Of a stretch of DNA of 64,000 nucleotides, positions 1-9,418 are shown one piece after another. Both the position numbers and the translations under genes were made by a program. Below the pieces are notes generated by a model that saw only the letters and a program-made list of their open reading frames with translations, did not search any database and had not been told where the DNA came from. The stretch spans positions 186,001-250,000 of the forward strand of contig NZ_MLFR01000001.1 of the NCBI RefSeq assembly GCF_002095475.1, in the 5' to 3' direction. Numbering within the stretch: position 1 is the first letter of the stretch; every line of letters begins with the position of its first letter. This stretch comes from Pantoea rwandensis. Its GTDB lineage: Bacteria; Pseudomonadota; Gammaproteobacteria; Enterobacterales; Enterobacteriaceae.

Positions 1-524
1 AACCAGTTACTGATATGACAGATAATTTGCGCGCCGCCCAGCGCTGCCAGGCGGGCCGTTTCGATAAAGTGGATATCCATACAAATCAGCAAGGCGATAT
101 TGCCAATTTCGGTGGCAAAAACCTGATGCCCGACATCACCGTTGGCGGCCCACTTGGGTTCAGAGATATAAGGGTGGGTTTTACGATGCACGCCAATCAC
201 ACCTTGTGGGCCGACTAAAATAGCGCTGTTGTAATAGATGTCTGTGACAGGGTCATGCTCGGGCATGCCAAACACCAGATAGCAATGGTACTCCCGCGCG
301 ATGGCGGCAAAAGCCTGACTGGTTTCGCCATCAGCTGTTTCTACATAGGGCGCAACTTCCGCACGATCCTGCCAGCAATAGCCGGTGGTGGCCATTTCCG
401 GCATCACTATTAGTTGGGCGCCATCACGTGCCGACTGACTGGCAAGTTGCAGCAGACGGGCGACGTTTTCATCTTTACGAAATTGTGTGGGTTCAAACTG
501 AATAGTCGCAACGTTAATTTTCAT
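1..524 (-). CDS. Carbon-nitrogen hydrolase (nitrilase superfamily), C-terminus cut by window edge
   Basis: About 174 residues are visible before the window edge. The Glu-Lys-Cys triad of the nitrilase superfamily can be read: Glu43 in LIVMPEMATTGY, Lys115 in VHRKTHPY and Cys148 in LLICMDIHF. Family members hydrolyse nitriles, amides or N-carbamoyl compounds in the cytoplasm; the substrate here cannot be told. The start codon shares one base with the stop of the NCS1 permease (TAATG), so the two are translationally coupled. That suggests the enzyme acts on what the permease imports and releases ammonia, which would fit the sigma-54 promoter upstream. The subfamily is uncertain because the C-terminal third is missing. 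Confidence 0.9.
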   Translation of the reverse strand, partial: MKINVATIQFEPTQFRKDENVARLLQLASQSARDGAQLIVMPEMATTGYCWQDRAEVAPYVETADGETSQAFAAIAREYHCYLVFGMPEHDPVTDIYYNSAILVGPQGVIGVHRKTHPYISEPKWAANGDVGHQVFATEIGNIALLICMDIHFIETARLAALGGAQIICHISNW

Positions 525-2017
525 TACTCAGCCTCCTTGCTCATTAATGGTTGGAAGACTGGCTTAGGCCCCTGATAGGCATCAGAAGGTTTCCAGTTGG
601 TCTGCATATCATCAGGGAATGTCTTAAAGTAATAGCGTCCACGCGTGGCGACACTGATAGCGACGTGCAGCACCGGCCCCACCAACATGGCAATGAACGA
701 CGCGTAAACCATAGGGTAAACACCGAGCACACCTGCAGCACCAATGGCTACCGCAACGCAAAGGGCAATGACGCCGCTTGGGTTCCACATCCGCAGATAC
801 TCTTTGCGAAACTCAACAAAATCGGACGGCGCAAGGTGTAGCATTTTGCGGCAGATGTAATAGTCAGCAAGGATAATAAACACCCAAGTATTGGTGAGAA
901 TGCCGGTAATCGAAAGGAAAGTACCGGTGTACTGCAGAATATTGCAAACGTAGAACACCACGCCAAGCAACCAGACCAGCAGCATCCACCATTGACGCCC
1001 CGGACGATAGTTAAACGCCATATCCATGGTATTCGACAGCGCGATAGAACCGGAATAGAGGTTCAGTACGTTGATGCGAATCTGCGTGATCACTGCAAAT
1101 AGCACGCCAGTCAGTCCAATAATCAGCGGGAAGACAAAGCCAGGATCTAAAGCCAGTGACCAGACATCCTGCCCATGAATGTGCGGCATCAAGGTATAGG
1201 CCATAAAGGCGCCAAACAGCATTACCACCACAATGGGAATCAACATCCCCAGCATAATGGTCGCCGTGCCTTTATGACTCACGCCAGGACGAGCGAAGCG
1301 GCCATAATCGGTGGCCATCAAGCCCTGAAACACGATCTGTCCATTGGCCATATTCATCACCAGCCACAGTGCATTGCTGTCGACTTCCGCTTTCGGCTGC
1401 CAGCCTCCGAAGCCAACCGTGGGATAATGGTGGGTGAGTTGCCAGATGCAGAAACCGAATAGCAAGATGAAGATCGGCACGCCCCAGGTTTGCAAGAACT
1501 GCATTGACGACATGCCTTTCCATACAAACCAAATTGCCGCCAACCCCATCAATGCAAAAATCGCGATACCAGTGATGGAGTTAACCGGCACACCTGCGTA
1601 GTTTGCGATGGCATGTGACACGATGGTGCCTTCAAACAAGAAGTAAAAGATAAAGTTGATGGCATAGATCAATGAGGTAAAGGCCGACCCCATATATCCA
1701 AAGCCTAAACCTCGCGTCATCAGATTGAGTGACAGGCCCTCTTTACTGGCCATTTTCATAATGCAGGAGCCAATGAGGGTGGCAAACACCACCATATACC
1801 CGATGGGTAACAGCAGCAGCGGCCAGCCGACCTGATAGCTGATATCTGCGCCGAGGCTGAACCAAAACATGGCGGTTGAGTTGCCCAGTAACACTAAAAT
1901 GATGGCCGGGATTGGCCAGCGATAGTGGGAGGGAACACGCCCAACGGCATAATCCTCGACCGCTTCCGCTTCGGTGATGTCTTGTGGTCCCTGAAACCAC
2001 GCTTTTAACTTGCTCAT
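524..2017 (-). CDS. NCS1-family nucleobase/hydantoin-type permease
   Basis: A 497-residue inner-membrane protein with about 12 hydrophobic segments and an NCS1 pattern (cytosine, purine, allantoin and hydantoin permeases); the GNSTAMFWFSLGADISYQVG stretch lies in the first membrane segments. It probably imports a nitrogen-rich heterocycle or amide by H+ or Na+ symport. The reading frame stays open upstream to 2293, but the ATG at 2017 is chosen because GGAG lies eight bases before it and the upstream part would run through a terminator hairpin. The protein then begins MSKLKAWFQG, typical for the family. It is first in an operon with the nitrilase-type gene. Substrate unknown. Confidence 0.9.
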   Translation of the reverse strand: MSKLKAWFQGPQDITEAEAVEDYAVGRVPSHYRWPIPAIILVLLGNSTAMFWFSLGADISYQVGWPLLLLPIGYMVVFATLIGSCIMKMASKEGLSLNLMTRGLGFGYMGSAFTSLIYAINFIFYFLFEGTIVSHAIANYAGVPVNSITGIAIFALMGLAAIWFVWKGMSSMQFLQTWGVPIFILLFGFCIWQLTHHYPTVGFGGWQPKAEVDSNALWLVMNMANGQIVFQGLMATDYGRFARPGVSHKGTATIMLGMLIPIVVVMLFGAFMAYTLMPHIHGQDVWSLALDPGFVFPLIIGLTGVLFAVITQIRINVLNLYSGSIALSNTMDMAFNYRPGRQWWMLLVWLLGVVFYVCNILQYTGTFLSITGILTNTWVFIILADYYICRKMLHLAPSDFVEFRKEYLRMWNPSGVIALCVAVAIGAAGVLGVYPMVYASFIAMLVGPVLHVAISVATRGRYYFKTFPDDMQTNWKPSDAYQGPKPVFQPLMSKEAE

Positions 2018-2031
2018 AAATTTACTCCAAT

Positions 2032-2066
2032 AAAAAAAGCCCCGCCGACAGCATTGCCGGTGGGGC
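2032..2066 (-). terminator. Intrinsic terminator inside the permease leader (attenuator candidate)
   Basis: On the minus strand an 11-bp stem (GCCCCACCGGC with GTCGGCGGGGC, one mismatch and one G-U) closes a 6-base loop and is followed directly by seven T residues. The permease ribosome-binding site and start codon lie only 8 to 15 bases beyond the T tract, and a sigma-54 promoter lies about 100 bases upstream. A terminator between promoter and gene implies attenuation (riboswitch, leader or protein-mediated), or that the hairpin ends a small RNA of about 125 nt. I could not match the leader to a riboswitch class from memory. Confidence 0.8.
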
Positions 2067-2168
2067 TTCTTCGCCTGAATTCGATGTATTGGAGTGGCAC
2101 TGTGCCACAAACCGCTTACCAGACTACGGCGCCTGTTCCTGACGTGCAGGATGCGGTATATGGAGAAA

Positions 2169-2184
2169 AGCAATTGTCGTGCCA
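2169..2184 (-). promoter_or_regulatory. Sigma-54 promoter for permease-nitrilase operon
   Basis: The minus strand reads TGGCACG-ACAA-TTGCT, which fits the -24/-12 consensus TGGCACR-N4-TTGCW, with exactly ten bases between the invariant GG and GC. It implies RpoN dependence and an enhancer-binding activator, a usual arrangement for nitrogen-scavenging genes. Predicted transcription start is near 2157, giving an untranslated leader of about 140 bases. Confidence 0.85.
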
Positions 2185-2245
2185 GATTGTAAGTATCTGG
2201 TATCCATGCCCCTACAAGTAAAATTCGACATAATGAAGCTTTATT

Positions 2246-2264
2246 ACGGTGCAGCTTGCACCGT
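2246..2264. promoter_or_regulatory. 19-bp perfect inverted repeat, likely activator site upstream of the sigma-54 promoter
   Basis: ACGGTGCA-GCT-TGCACCGT is a perfect 8-3-8 palindrome about 62 bp upstream of the -24 element. It is the natural candidate for the upstream activating sequence of an enhancer-binding protein. It does not match the NtrC consensus, whose half-sites run the other way (GCACC...GGTGC), so a dedicated regulator is more likely. None is encoded in the visible neighbourhood. Confidence 0.55.
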
Positions 2265-2364
2265 GATTGATCGTATGGGGTCCGTTCAGTCACGAATAAA
2301 ATGGAGGTTTATTGGATCGGGAGTAATGGCATTACTTACAGGCACAGCGCAATCATCAGGCAAT

Positions 2365-2396
2365 AAAAAAGCCGATGACTGTTTTCAGTCATCGGC
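2365..2396 (-). terminator. Rho-independent terminator after ddc
   Basis: On the minus strand GCCGATGACTG-AAAA-CAGTCATCGGC forms a perfect 11-bp stem followed by TTTTTT. It begins about 20 bases after the ddc stop codon and separates dat-ddc from the permease transcription unit. Confidence 0.9.
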
Positions 2397-2415
2397 TTTA
2401 TCGAACACAGCAGAA

Positions 2416-3882
2416 TTACGCGTTCAGCAGCTGATTAGCAGTCTTCTCAACCAGCGCCAGCAGGACTTTGATGTCTTCCAGCGTCACGGTTGGGTTCAGC
2501 AAAGTCAACTTCAGGCAAGTCACACCCTGGTGCTCCGTCACACCTACGTTGGCGCGGCCAGAATCCAGCAGGGCATCGCCGATACGCTGGTTGAACAGAG
2601 CAATCTGCGCGATATCGGTCAGTTGCTCTGGACGGTAGCGGAACAGCACGCTTGCCAGTTGTGGCTGCATCACCAGCTCAAGGCGTGGTTCTGAAGTCAC
2701 AAACTTCGCCACTTCCTGTGCCAGCGTCACACCGTGATCGATGATCGCGGCATACTGTTTCTGACCCAGAGCTTCCAGACCCATCCACAGCTTCAATGCA
2801 TCGAAACGACGCGTGGTCTGCAGAGATTTGGATACCAGGTTAGGAACACCGGCTTCTTCATCGAACTCAGAGTTCAGGTAAGCCGCCTGATAACGCATCA
2901 GCTCGTAGTGACGCTCATCTTTCAACAGGAATGCGCCACAGCTGATGGTCTGGAAGTACTGTTTGTGGAAGTCCAACGTCACGGAATCCACTAACTCCAG
3001 GCCATCAAGGTAGTAACGATACTTCTCAGACAGCAGCAGTGCGCCGCCCCAAGCTGCATCGACATGCATCCAAATGTTGTGCTCAGCCGCGATGCCCGCG
3101 ATTTCGCGCAGGGGATCAATCGCGCCTGCATCGGTAGTACCTGCAGTCGCGACAATCGCCAGAATCTGCTCGCCATTGGCTTCGGCCTGCGCCAGTTTGG
3201 CTTTCAGGTCGTTAACGTCCATCCGTGCGAACTGATCAGACTTCACCTGCACCACAGAATTGTAACCGTGGCCAAGCAGCGCCATGTTTTTCTGTACCGA
3301 GAAGTGCGCATTCTCAGAACACAACACTTTGATCTTACGCAGATCGCCAGTGATGCCGTCCAACTGCACTGAATGACCTTGACGCTGATAGAACGCATCA
3401 CGCGCCAGCATCAAGCCCATCAGGTTGCTTTGTGTGCCACCACTGGTGAACACGCCAGCATCGCCTGCTGGGTAACCCACCTGTGCACGCAACCATTCGA
3501 TCAGTTTGACCTCAATGATGGTGGCAGAAGGGCTCTGATCCCATGAGTCCATACTCTGGTTGGTGGCGTTGATCAGCACTTCTGCGGCCTGGCTTACCAC
3601 CAGGCTTGGGCAGTGCAGGTGCGCCACACATTGTGGGTGGTGCACTGACAGGCTGTCTTTCAGGAAATACTCAATCGCGCGTTCAATCGCGGCCTGGTTA
3701 CCCAAGCCGTTTGGATTGAAGTCGAGCGTGATACGCTCGCGCAGTTCGGCAACACTTTTGCCTTGATACATCTCAGGCTGTTGCAGCCACTGCACAACCG
3801 CGGCGCTGCTCTGGGCAATCGCCTGCTGGTACGCCTCAATGCTCTGTGCTGAGGCGGCCAGAATCGGGTTTACTTCAGACAT
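2416..3882 (-). CDS. ddc: L-2,4-diaminobutyrate decarboxylase
   Basis: A 488-residue cytoplasmic group II PLP decarboxylase. The internal aldimine Lys307 lies in TLDFHKQYF, Asp275 in HVDAAWGG binds the pyridine nitrogen, and His193 in the NAH motif would stack on the cofactor. Next to diaminobutyrate aminotransferase, the expected reaction is L-2,4-diaminobutyrate to 1,3-diaminopropane and CO2; the decarboxylase fold alone would not separate this from glutamate or tyrosine decarboxylase. It starts 12 bp after the dat stop, with GGAAGAG as ribosome-binding site, so it is co-transcribed with dat. A strong terminator follows. Confidence 0.93.
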   Translation of the reverse strand: MSEVNPILAASAQSIEAYQQAIAQSSAAVVQWLQQPEMYQGKSVAELRERITLDFNPNGLGNQAAIERAIEYFLKDSLSVHHPQCVAHLHCPSLVVSQAAEVLINATNQSMDSWDQSPSATIIEVKLIEWLRAQVGYPAGDAGVFTSGGTQSNLMGLMLARDAFYQRQGHSVQLDGITGDLRKIKVLCSENAHFSVQKNMALLGHGYNSVVQVKSDQFARMDVNDLKAKLAQAEANGEQILAIVATAGTTDAGAIDPLREIAGIAAEHNIWMHVDAAWGGALLLSEKYRYYLDGLELVDSVTLDFHKQYFQTISCGAFLLKDERHYELMRYQAAYLNSEFDEEAGVPNLVSKSLQTTRRFDALKLWMGLEALGQKQYAAIIDHGVTLAQEVAKFVTSEPRLELVMQPQLASVLFRYRPEQLTDIAQIALFNQRIGDALLDSGRANVGVTEHQGVTCLKLTLLNPTVTLEDIKVLLALVEKTANQLLNA

Positions 3883-3894
3883 TTACTCTTCCAA

Positions 3895-5280
3895 TCAAAC
3901 AGGTTTGATGCCAGCGCCAATCAGCGCCTGCTCAAATTTATCCAGGAAAATCGCCAACTCTTCATTGGTGATCAGCAGTGACGGCAACAGACGCAATACT
4001 GCACCATGACGTCCGCCACGCTCCAGAATCAGACCTGCTTCGAAGCACTTCTTCTGCAGCAGCGCAGAAAGTTCGCCATCAGCCGGCAGGCTACCCATAT
4101 GGTCAGCCGCTTCGTTTGGTTTAACAATCTCAATACCGATCATCATACCCATGCCGCGAATGTGACCGATGACTGGGAAGCGCTTCTGCATTTCAGCCAA
4201 CTGCGCTTTGAGCCATTCGCCTTGCTCTGCCACTTTCCCGGCAATGTTCTGCTCGGTCAGGACTTTCAAGGTTGCCAGACCGGTTGCCATCGCCAGCTGG
4301 TTGCCGCGGAAGGTGCCAGTGTGGTGGCCAGGTGACCAGGCATCAAACTGCTTTTTAATACCCAGTACAGCCAGTGGCAGGCCGCCGCCGACAGCTTTTG
4401 ACATCACGATGATGTCTGGCTGAATGTCAGCGTGTTCGAAGGCGAAGAATTTACCGGTACGCGCAAAGCCAGCCTGTACTTCGTCCAGGATCAGCAGAAT
4501 GCCATGTTCCTGAGTCACTTTACGGATGCGTTGCAGCCACTCGACCGGAGCCGGGTTCACGCCGCCTTCACCCTGAACTGCTTCCAGGATGACAGCCGCA
4601 GGTTTACGTACGCCGCTTTCAACGTCGTTGATCAGGTTTTCGAAATAGTAGGTCAGTGCTTTAACACCGGCTTCTCCACCGAGGCCCAATGGGCAACGGT
4701 ACAGGTGCGGGTAAGGCATGAACTGCACTTCTGGCATCATGCCATTGACCGCTTCTTTCGGCGAAAGGTTGCCGGTAACGGCTAACGCACCATGGGTCAT
4801 ACCATGGTAGCCGCCTGAGAAGCTGATTACGCCACTGCGACCAGTGACTTTCTTAGCCAGCTTCAGAGCCGCTTCAACGGCATCAGCACCGGAAGGACCG
4901 GTGAATTGCAGGCAGTACTCTTTACCCTGGCCAGGCAGCAGCGAGAGCAAAGACTCAGAGAATTGATCTTTCAGAGGTGTCGTCAGATCAAGAGTATGTA
5001 ACGGCAAGCCGCTGGTAATGACATTTTGGATGCTCTGCAGAACATCAGGATGGTTGTGACCAAGTGCCAGCGTCCCTGCGCCAGCCAGACAGTCAAGATA
5101 TTGTTTATTCTCAACATCTGTGATCCACACGCCATTGGCTTTGGCAATCGCTAAAGGCAATTTGCGCGGGTAACTCCTGACGTTTGATTCAAACTCAGCC
5201 TGACGGGCTAAGAATGCGTCGTTGTTTCCGTTGAATGAATTGGCACCAAAAGTATCAATACGGACTTTATCCGTCATCAT
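3895..5280 (-). CDS. dat: Diaminobutyrate--2-oxoglutarate aminotransferase
   Basis: A 461-residue class III PLP aminotransferase. Asp266 in [10 protein letters not shown] and the Schiff-base Lys295 in VMSKAVGGG are visible, and length and overall pattern match the DABA transaminase family. It converts L-aspartate semialdehyde and glutamate to L-2,4-diaminobutyrate, the substrate of the next gene. Two ATG codons stand in tandem; the second (5277) has the better distance from AAGGAG, so the protein may start MTDKVRID. A sigma-70-like promoter lies about 90 bp upstream. 1,3-Diaminopropane serves polyamine synthesis or secretion in other bacteria. Confidence 0.93.
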
Positions 5281-8431: not shown

Positions 8432-9418
8432 ATGTTGGAAGAAAAAGCCATTCGTAAAGTCTCCGTGGTGATCCCGGTCTATAACGAACAGGAAAGCCTG
8501 CCTGAGTTGGTGCGTCGCACTGATGCAGCCTGTGCGGTGCTTAACCTTGAGTATGAAATTTTGCTGGTTGATGACGGCAGCAGCGATCGCTCAGGCGAGA
8601 TGATTACTGAAGCCGCCGATATGCCAGGCAGTCATGTCGTGGGAGTTCTGCTGAACCGTAATTACGGCCAGCACTCCGCGATTATGGCGGGTTTTAGCCA
8701 TGTCTCGGGTGATTTGATCATCACTCTGGATGCTGACTTACAGAATCCGCCCGAAGAGATTCCCAATCTGGTGAAAGCCGCCCAGCAGGGATATGACGTG
8801 GTAGGTACCGTTCGTCAGAATCGGCAGGACAGTTGGTTCCGCCGTCGCGCATCGCGCACGATTAATCAGCTGATTCAGCGCGTCACCGGCAAAGCGATGG
8901 GCGACTATGGCTGCATGTTGCGTGCTTATCGCCGCCACATCGTCGATGCCATGCTCAACTGCCACGAGCGCAGCACCTTTATTCCCATCCTCGCCAACAC
9001 TTTCGCACGCCGAACCATCGAATTGCCGGTGGCGCATGCAGAACGTGAGTTTGGTGACTCTAAATACAGCTTTATGAAGCTGATAAATCTGATGTATGAC
9101 CTGGTCACCTGTCTGACCACCACGCCGCTGCGTCTGCTGAGTATTGTTGGCAGCCTGATTGCTCTGGCGGGTTTTGCCTTCTCATTGATTTTGATTGTCT
9201 TACGACTGTTCCTCGGTGCCGACTGGGCCGGAGACGGTGTGTTCATGCTGTTTGCGGTGCTGTTTATCTTTGTCGGCGCGCAATTCATCGGCATGGGCCT
9301 TCTCGGCGAATACATTGGCCGAATCTATAACGACGTACGCGCACGTCCGCGCTACTTCATTCAACGTGTTATTAACTCGCAGAAAGATGCCTCATCTGTA
9401 CAGGAAATTGAGCAATGA
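8432..9418 (+). CDS. arnC: Undecaprenyl-phosphate 4-deoxy-4-formamido-L-arabinose transferase
   Basis: A family 2 glycosyltransferase of 328 residues with two C-terminal membrane segments (about 238-300). The [16 protein letters not shown] start, the [10 protein letters not shown] motif and the RQDSWFR stretch match E. coli ArnC closely. It moves Ara4FN from UDP to undecaprenyl phosphate on the cytoplasmic face of the inner membrane. The ATG at 8432 is preferred over an in-frame TTG at 8423, because it aligns with the E. coli N-terminus and has GGAG ten bases upstream. The last four bases overlap arnA (ATGA). Confidence 0.95.

Follow-up and report, generated by a model that had tools for sequence, protein, structure and literature searches.

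A leader before an NCS1 permease operon of Pantoea: most likely a variant ANTAR-type transcription attenuator behind a sigma-54 promoter

Why should an intrinsic terminator stand directly in front of the ribosome-binding site of a transporter gene? The question arises on the minus strand of the window, by which we mean the whole stretch of 64,000 nucleotides analysed here, where a palindrome, a sigma-54 element, a structured leader of about 140 nt, a terminator, the sequence TTGGAG and the ATG of an NCS1-family permease gene follow one another in the 5' to 3' direction. The answer we propose is that the leader is very probably a transcription attenuator controlled by an AmiR (ANTAR) protein, and most likely a variant of a known antitermination switch rather than a new riboswitch. 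The elements of the locus are the following.

2273-2257 and 2253-2237, minus strand: read as a tandem pair of NtrC-like sites spaced by 20 bp, their inner halves being the palindrome
2264-2246, minus strand: palindrome ACGGTGCA-AGC-TGCACCGT
2262-2248, minus strand, flanking base included: palindrome core GGTGCA-N3-TGCACC
2184-2170, minus strand: sigma-54 -24/-12 promoter TGGCACGACAATTGC
2157-2153 with 2115-2111, minus strand: helix P1 (ACCGC/GCGGT), predicted three-way junction (2157-2111)
2151-2147 with 2141-2137, minus strand: helix P2 (TCCTG/CAGGA), predicted three-way junction
2135-2120, minus strand: SL1, first hexaloop hairpin (CAGGC-GCCGTA-GTCTG), with a C:G closing pair, G4 and, at loop position 1, G in place of A
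2108-2094, minus strand: P4, linker hairpin (GTGGCA-CAG-TGCCAC)
2075-2064, minus strand: SL2, second hexaloop hairpin (GGC-GAAGAA-GCC), sharing bases with the terminator 5' arm and predicted to act as antiterminator
2072-2033, minus strand: intrinsic terminator with an 11-bp outer and a 6-bp inner stem; run of seven T at 2038-2032
2030-2025, minus strand: ribosome-binding site TTGGAG, between terminator and ATG
2017-2015, minus strand: ATG of the permease gene

An earlier note on this DNA had described the upstream element as a perfect 19-bp palindrome; the palindrome is there, but it is not perfect, its arms of 8 bp being separated by a 3-nt centre. The near-consensus promoter, the terminator with its seven T residues followed by the ribosome-binding site and the ATG, and the hairpins TCCTG/CAGGA (2151-2137) and GTGGC/GCCAC (2108-2094) are as that note had read them, the two hairpins being parts of a larger fold. 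We also agree with its argument that such a terminator makes sense only if it is conditional. Both hexaloop hairpins, a pairing of the leader with the ribosome-binding site and the regulators encoded past the window edge are absent from it.

All 14 permease loci that carry the leader, and none of the 7 that do not, have a loose -24/-12 pattern within the 330 bases before the permease gene; the pattern also gives a few second, off-place matches in the leader loci. From the position of this element, transcription is expected to start near 2158. The consensus of NtrC sites is TGCACC-N5-GGTGCA. Counted against this consensus, each of the two degenerate window sites has 8 of 12 matches, and single sites reach up to 11 of 12 in some relatives. 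Upstream of the promoter, 11 of the 17 leaders have the palindrome with 10 or more of its 12 positions matched, and it falls below this value in L018 (9), in two Mangrovibacter loci and in three Alloalcanivorax loci; in the window genome the palindromic pattern is found 7 times, little more often than a reversed control, found 4 times. Control of the sigma-54 promoter by NtrC is plausible. Further upstream, the minus-strand genes at 2416-5280 include an L-2,4-diaminobutyrate decarboxylase-like gene (NCBIfam match below the cut-off), which is followed by a terminator-like site at 2399-2368, and a gene whose resemblance to a class-III aminotransferase was judged by eye alone.

The leader of the window folds with a minimum free energy (MFE) of -59.2 kcal/mol (z = -4.31), a stability equalled by none of 200 dinucleotide shuffles. 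The earlier note would have abandoned the leader had it been confined to this strain; we find it in 17 copies, namely those of 14 permease loci, that of the window and those of two Pantoea genomes (L007, L012), which together cover seven genera (Pantoea, Kosakonia, Winslowiella, Biostraticola, Erwinia, Mangrovibacter and Alloalcanivorax). When the leaders are cut at SL2, P1, P2 and SL1 are all present in the MFE structure of 12 of the 17, the full junction being missing in 5, and the stem of SL1 is formed in 14 and SL2 in 16, the SL1 loop of L031 having an extra inner A-U pair. In the full-length folds, the terminator is formed and SL2, which has only 3 bp, is not, in 17/17. The local MFE structure contains a hairpin at the position of P4 in every leader, with differing sequence, followed in 16 of the 17 local folds by 14-18 unpaired AU-rich bases, this spacer being partly paired in L028. 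P4 itself, read as GTGGC-ACAGT-GCCAC, was considered as an ANTAR loop and rejected, its loop being unconserved and those of SL1 and SL2 conserved. Among 5000 shuffles of the window leader, an SL1-like hairpin appears in 74 and 3 bp at the place of SL2 in 241, so that a single sequence is little proof and the case rests on conservation and context.

Standard pairs were counted in a hand alignment of 15 distinct rows out of the 17 (two duplicates dropped), since MAFFT misplaces the variable strands of the junction; in this alignment, which was guided by single-sequence folds and is biased towards structure, they occupy 69 of 75 cells in P1, 82 of 82 in P2 and 71 of 71 in SL1. The covariation that had been proposed as a check is present in P2, where both sides change in several genera (U-A/G-C, C-G/U-A, U-A/A-U/G-C and C-G/A-U), and in the terminator, which RNAalifold recovers on one MAFFT alignment together with SL1 and with 4 pairs changed on both sides; it is limited to the two Mangrovibacter rows in P1, and SL1 has no both-side changes, either in the 15 hand-aligned rows or by RNAalifold on the MAFFT alignment. 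On another MAFFT alignment RNAalifold returns SL1 alone, and P1 and P2 are not recovered by this program on the MAFFT alignments.

The genes that follow the leader extend past the window edge into the preceding stretch, L002, whose positions become window positions by the subtraction of 10000.

524-2017, minus strand: NCS1-family permease, 497 aa, over the Pfam Transp_cyt_pur cut-off (NCBIfam ncs1 match below cut-off)
1-524, minus strand, continuing past the window edge (L002:8818-10524): double nitrilase (CN_hydrolase) gene, 568 aa
L002:7517-8671, downstream of the nitrilase gene: AmiC/UrtA-type binding protein, 384 aa
L002:6906-7520: AmiR-like protein, 204 aa, its AmiR_N and its ANTAR domain both scoring above the Pfam cut-off

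The genes are closely packed, permease and nitrilase overlapping by 1 base and amiC and amiR by 4 bases, with a gap of 146 bases between nitrilase and amiC. An AmiR_N-ANTAR protein and an AmiC/UrtA-type binding protein are thus encoded together, as an AmiC-AmiR pair. Against the PDB, the AmiC-like protein matches P. aeruginosa AmiC at E 1.4e-55, its best match being 8tg1 (E 7.9e-66), named an extracellular ligand-binding receptor, and the AmiR-like protein matches AmiR at E 9e-4 as a single sequence and at 2.5e-22 as a 13-row profile. The match of this profile to NasR is stronger because the NasR relative of the window genome and a second AmiR relative are among its rows. No PDB relative of the permease was found by phmmer at E 0.01. 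ANTAR proteins are described as RNA-binding antiterminators (PMC3369931, PMC7496416, PMC8934654, PMC3369936, PMC8164766), and the RNA contacts reported for EutV include Tyr164, Arg168 and Met172 (PMC8934654). Assuming an offset of 2 residues in the PDB-chain numbering, these three align with a Tyr, an Arg and a Met that are the same in all 11 of the 11 AmiR orthologues; the AmiR-like protein of the window does not conserve Asn173, Arg175 and Arg177 of EutV.

Does the leader bear the RNA target of such a protein? Across the 17 leaders, the invariant bases concentrate at CAGGC-NNCGNN-GYC and GGC-RAAGAA-GCCC. As far as can be read from sequence, every leader allows two hexaloop hairpins of at least 3 bp each, has the C:G closing pair and G4 in both loops, and has an SL2 that overlaps and excludes the terminator, the two being mutually exclusive because SL2 takes the GCC of the terminator 5' arm. 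The GGC on the other side, needed by SL2 only, is invariant in 17/17 despite the variable spacer that precedes it. Two further features of the class are wanting. NasR, in SELEX, prefers a closing C:G, A1 and G4 (PMC7496416); the window has G at position 1 of both loops, A1 in both being found in 5 of the 17 leaders (L019, L020, L021, L030, L031) and G1 in 4 at SL1 and in 12 at SL2. In the structure described for EutV, G4 is the sole base-specific contact (PMC8934654), which would tolerate a G at loop position 1. As for the linker, lengths of 5-12 nt are given for eut and of 2-25 nt in an actinobacterial survey (PMC3369931, PMC8164766), and antitermination by EutV is reported to be impaired by linkers of 3 or 14 nt or by the addition of 20 nt (PMC3369931, PMC8934654). 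Here the distance from one loop start to the other is 58 nt in 9 leaders, the window included, and 67-75 nt in the remaining 8; the linkers measure 44 nt and 53-61 nt respectively and are partly folded into P1 and P4. Three of the five RNA features of the ANTAR-target class being present and two absent, the leader is a variant and not a plain member.

Leader and regulators occur together. A peptide-pattern scan of genome contigs with the permease, which reaches close relatives only, gave 21 permease loci, of which 14 have the leader with its sigma-54 match; nitrilase, AmiC and AmiR genes follow downstream in all 13 of these whose contig is long enough, L028 ending too early. None of the other seven (L022, L025, L026, L027, L029, L032 and L033) shows the leader or a sigma-54 match within the 330 bases before the permease, and a tblastn search at E 1e-8 detected amiC-amiR downstream in none of them. 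In L025, an AmiC relative (33.5% identity) lies upstream and the bases directly before the permease resemble, by eye only, the end of an ANTAR protein.

From these observations we infer the contact between protein and RNA, the antitermination, the control by AmiC, the part of NtrC and the kind of ligand, as follows. Under nitrogen limitation, the promoter would be fired by an enhancer-binding activator that occupies the tandem site upstream of it and is probably NtrC. In the absence of inducer, the AmiC-like protein would hold the AmiR-like protein, and the RNA polymerase would stop at the terminator before reaching the permease gene. The binding of the ligand to AmiC would release AmiR, which would dock on the SL1 hexaloop, presented by the three-way junction, and then capture and stabilise the SL2 hexaloop. 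Once SL2 is formed with the GCC of the terminator 5' arm, the terminator could not close, and read-through would result in the transcription of permease, nitrilase, amiC and amiR. The whole circuit would be an AND gate, in which a nitrogen-regulated sigma-54 promoter is followed by AmiR antitermination released by ligand-bound AmiC, a mechanism analogous to those of P. aeruginosa AmiC-AmiR and Klebsiella NasR. The ligand or substrate is perhaps a nitrile- or amide-type nitrogen source, a guess made because the sister systems described below include nitrile hydratase. An uncharacterised NCS1 permease/nitrilase operon thereby gains a regulatory logic open to experiment, in which nitrogen limitation AND inducer are combined. 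With a probable sensor named, the AmiC relative offers a way to look for the substrate.

The earlier note had suggested a possible riboswitch or small RNA; as the main function, both a riboswitch that binds a ligand and a small RNA standing by itself are disfavoured by a leader that travels with AmiC-AmiR and bears hexaloops of ANTAR type. A metabolite-binding riboswitch, whose aptamer would be the P1-P2-SL1 junction and which would control the terminator directly, could account for a three-way junction that is predicted to be stable, for the A left unpaired between P2 and SL1 in all 15 hand-aligned rows, and for a terminator placed downstream of the junction and before a transporter gene. The strands of P2 and the other junction strands vary, however, in sequence and in length, whereas the invariant bases are mostly at hexaloop, SL1-stem and SL2/terminator positions; moreover, no junction helix overlaps the terminator, and the seven permease loci without downstream amiC-amiR are also those without the leader. 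Nor does the leader match a class in Rfam, the earlier note having seen no likeness to the TPP, purine, cobalamin or guanidine classes: Rfam 15 gives no match at the gathering score in the 64-kb window, and in 1900-2420 a limit relaxed to E 5 brings in 7 hits below threshold, which are unrelated. We hold such a riboswitch to be very unlikely. A terminated transcript of about 125 nt would be expected whenever the promoter fires without read-through, and it might be thought a sigma-54-dependent small RNA, the permease being transcribed from another promoter; but a scan of 1-5000 for sites of the sigma-70 type gave none on the minus strand at 2017-2400, a simple terminator would need neither the SL2 GGC nor G4 in the loops, yet both are kept in every leader, and the leader co-occurs with amiC-amiR. 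This reading, too, appears highly improbable.

Could AmiR act on translation instead? In the MFE structure of the full leader of the window, ACTCCAATA (2095-2087) pairs with the region of the ribosome-binding site (2032-2024), and one may imagine a constitutive read-through in which this pairing blocks translation until AmiR binds. The 9-bp pairing is present, however, in the full-length folds of only 3 of the 17 leaders (the window, L013 and L014), against 17 of 17 for the terminator stem, and we consider a translational switch extremely unlikely. In the terminated fold, the same predicted pairing may possibly provide a second layer of control in some Pantoea. AmiR-controlled antitermination is the reading that we retain in what follows.

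NasR is a one-component nitrate sensor with a NIT domain, unlike the AmiC-AmiR pair. The likeness of the leader to that of Klebsiella nasF is seen through the window genome's own nas operon (L040, G000:C8:34000-53000, 9050-9260), which lies beside a NasR relative and has a sigma-54 site, the hexaloops AACGGC and AAAGGC, the second overlapping the terminator, and that terminator. Its loops are 27 nt apart, against 58 nt in the permease leader, both begin with A and the second is closed by U:G, whereas the permease leader has G1 and C:G; it offers a useful internal comparison. The amidase operon of P. aeruginosa, as it is described, likewise includes an AmiC-like sensor and an AmiR-like ANTAR protein in the operon they regulate, and its amiE leader likewise combines hexaloop hairpins with a terminator (PMC3369931, PMC3369936). 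The structural genes of the window differ from those of that operon, being an NCS1 permease and a protein with a double nitrilase domain, and its leader differs from amiE, known from descriptions, by the predicted three-way junction around SL1 and by the long spacing. Enterococcus eutP/EutV shares the dual hexaloops with G4 and a second hairpin that excludes the terminator, but belongs to the two-component system EutVW and is described as having loops 24 nt apart (A29, A53) with strict spacing, against 58 nt here (PMC3369931, PMC8934654). Titles and the beginnings of abstracts do not name the present leader, which the supplementary tables of PMC3369931 may list, and none of them joins ANTAR, a three-way junction and an antiterminator.

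The leader is present once per genome in the 15 genomes searched. A search of 147 genomes with the leader matched 8, of which 7 were kept, the window's own included; the match L010 (G042) looked, on inspection by eye, like a terminator resembling the leader by chance, no permease being found there, and was dropped. L004, L005, L006 and L009, whose contigs agree in length and place with those of L013, L014, L016 and L017, were treated as repeats of these and counted once, as was the genome to which both L008 and L012 belong. The plasmid search gave one record, Pantoea sp. SOD02, which is L016. A class-wide pattern search found the leader in 1 of 369 genomes, the window's own, and a protein search of 394 genomes of the order gave permease matches in 2, again including the window's own. 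From these few matches, the system is rare or the samples miss its genera.

The AmiR profile matches 15 of 295 genomes of the family at E 1e-20 or better; the high-scoring matches G926, G1071 and G890 were left out of the reading of loci. Four of the middle-scoring matches (L065-L068) have nitrilase, AmiC and AmiR without a permease in front, the AmiC of L067 being 56% identical to that of the window. Their nitrilase gene has its own leader, with a sigma-54 match in 3 of the 4, and in all four loci another sigma-54 match lies behind amiR. The second leader of L072 precedes a nitrile hydratase alpha gene (Pfam) and then transporter genes; that of L073 precedes a gene near-identical in sequence to the one in L072, and again transporter genes. 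A scripted search for dual hexaloops with a terminator found none in L065-L071, of which the leaders of L065-L068 were then read directly and the amide-ABC loci L069-L071 were covered by the script. In all 7 sister leaders that could be read, L065 ending inside its second, GGC-AAAG[AT]T-GCC stands at the base of the terminator, and the same search found no other R1/G4 hexaloop, hence no such SL1. SL2 at the terminator is therefore the shared element, being kept where SL1 is missing. With two leaders around nitrilase-amiC-amiR, both bearing the terminator-embedded hexaloop, L065-L068, L072 and L073 possibly represent a two-operon AmiR regulon for the use of nitriles.

Is there a clade of ANTAR antiterminators that departs from the published rules? 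In such a clade, hexaloops 58-75 nt apart would work because the P1-P2-SL1 junction and P4 fold the linker, leaving 14-18 unpaired bases before SL2, and G1 would be tolerated, while in the sister nitrilase/nitrile-hydratase loci the same type of AmiR would act, in each of two separate leaders, on just one hexaloop, embedded in the terminator. We regard the chances of this proposal as evenly balanced. If it is true, the published rules of spacing and of A1 do not hold generally, and one hexaloop can be enough. The loci provide natural variants with which the use of two loops by ANTAR proteins, their spacing and loop position 1 can be tested.

Other ANTAR systems were met on the way. In the window genome, a third ANTAR protein (L041, G000:C1:545000-563000), AmiR-like and of 197 aa, ends an ABC operon with a binding protein of the amide/urea type, divergent from a nitrile-hydratase-alpha gene; the search found no dual hexaloop in the leader of this operon, nor in the amide operon of a Raoultella plasmid (L049, NZ_CP041389.1), which carries an AmiC-AmiR-like pair together with acetamidase/formamidase, urea-type ABC and nitrilase-related genes. 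Among the plasmid records that match the AmiR relative, 20 of 69 are from Klebsiella.
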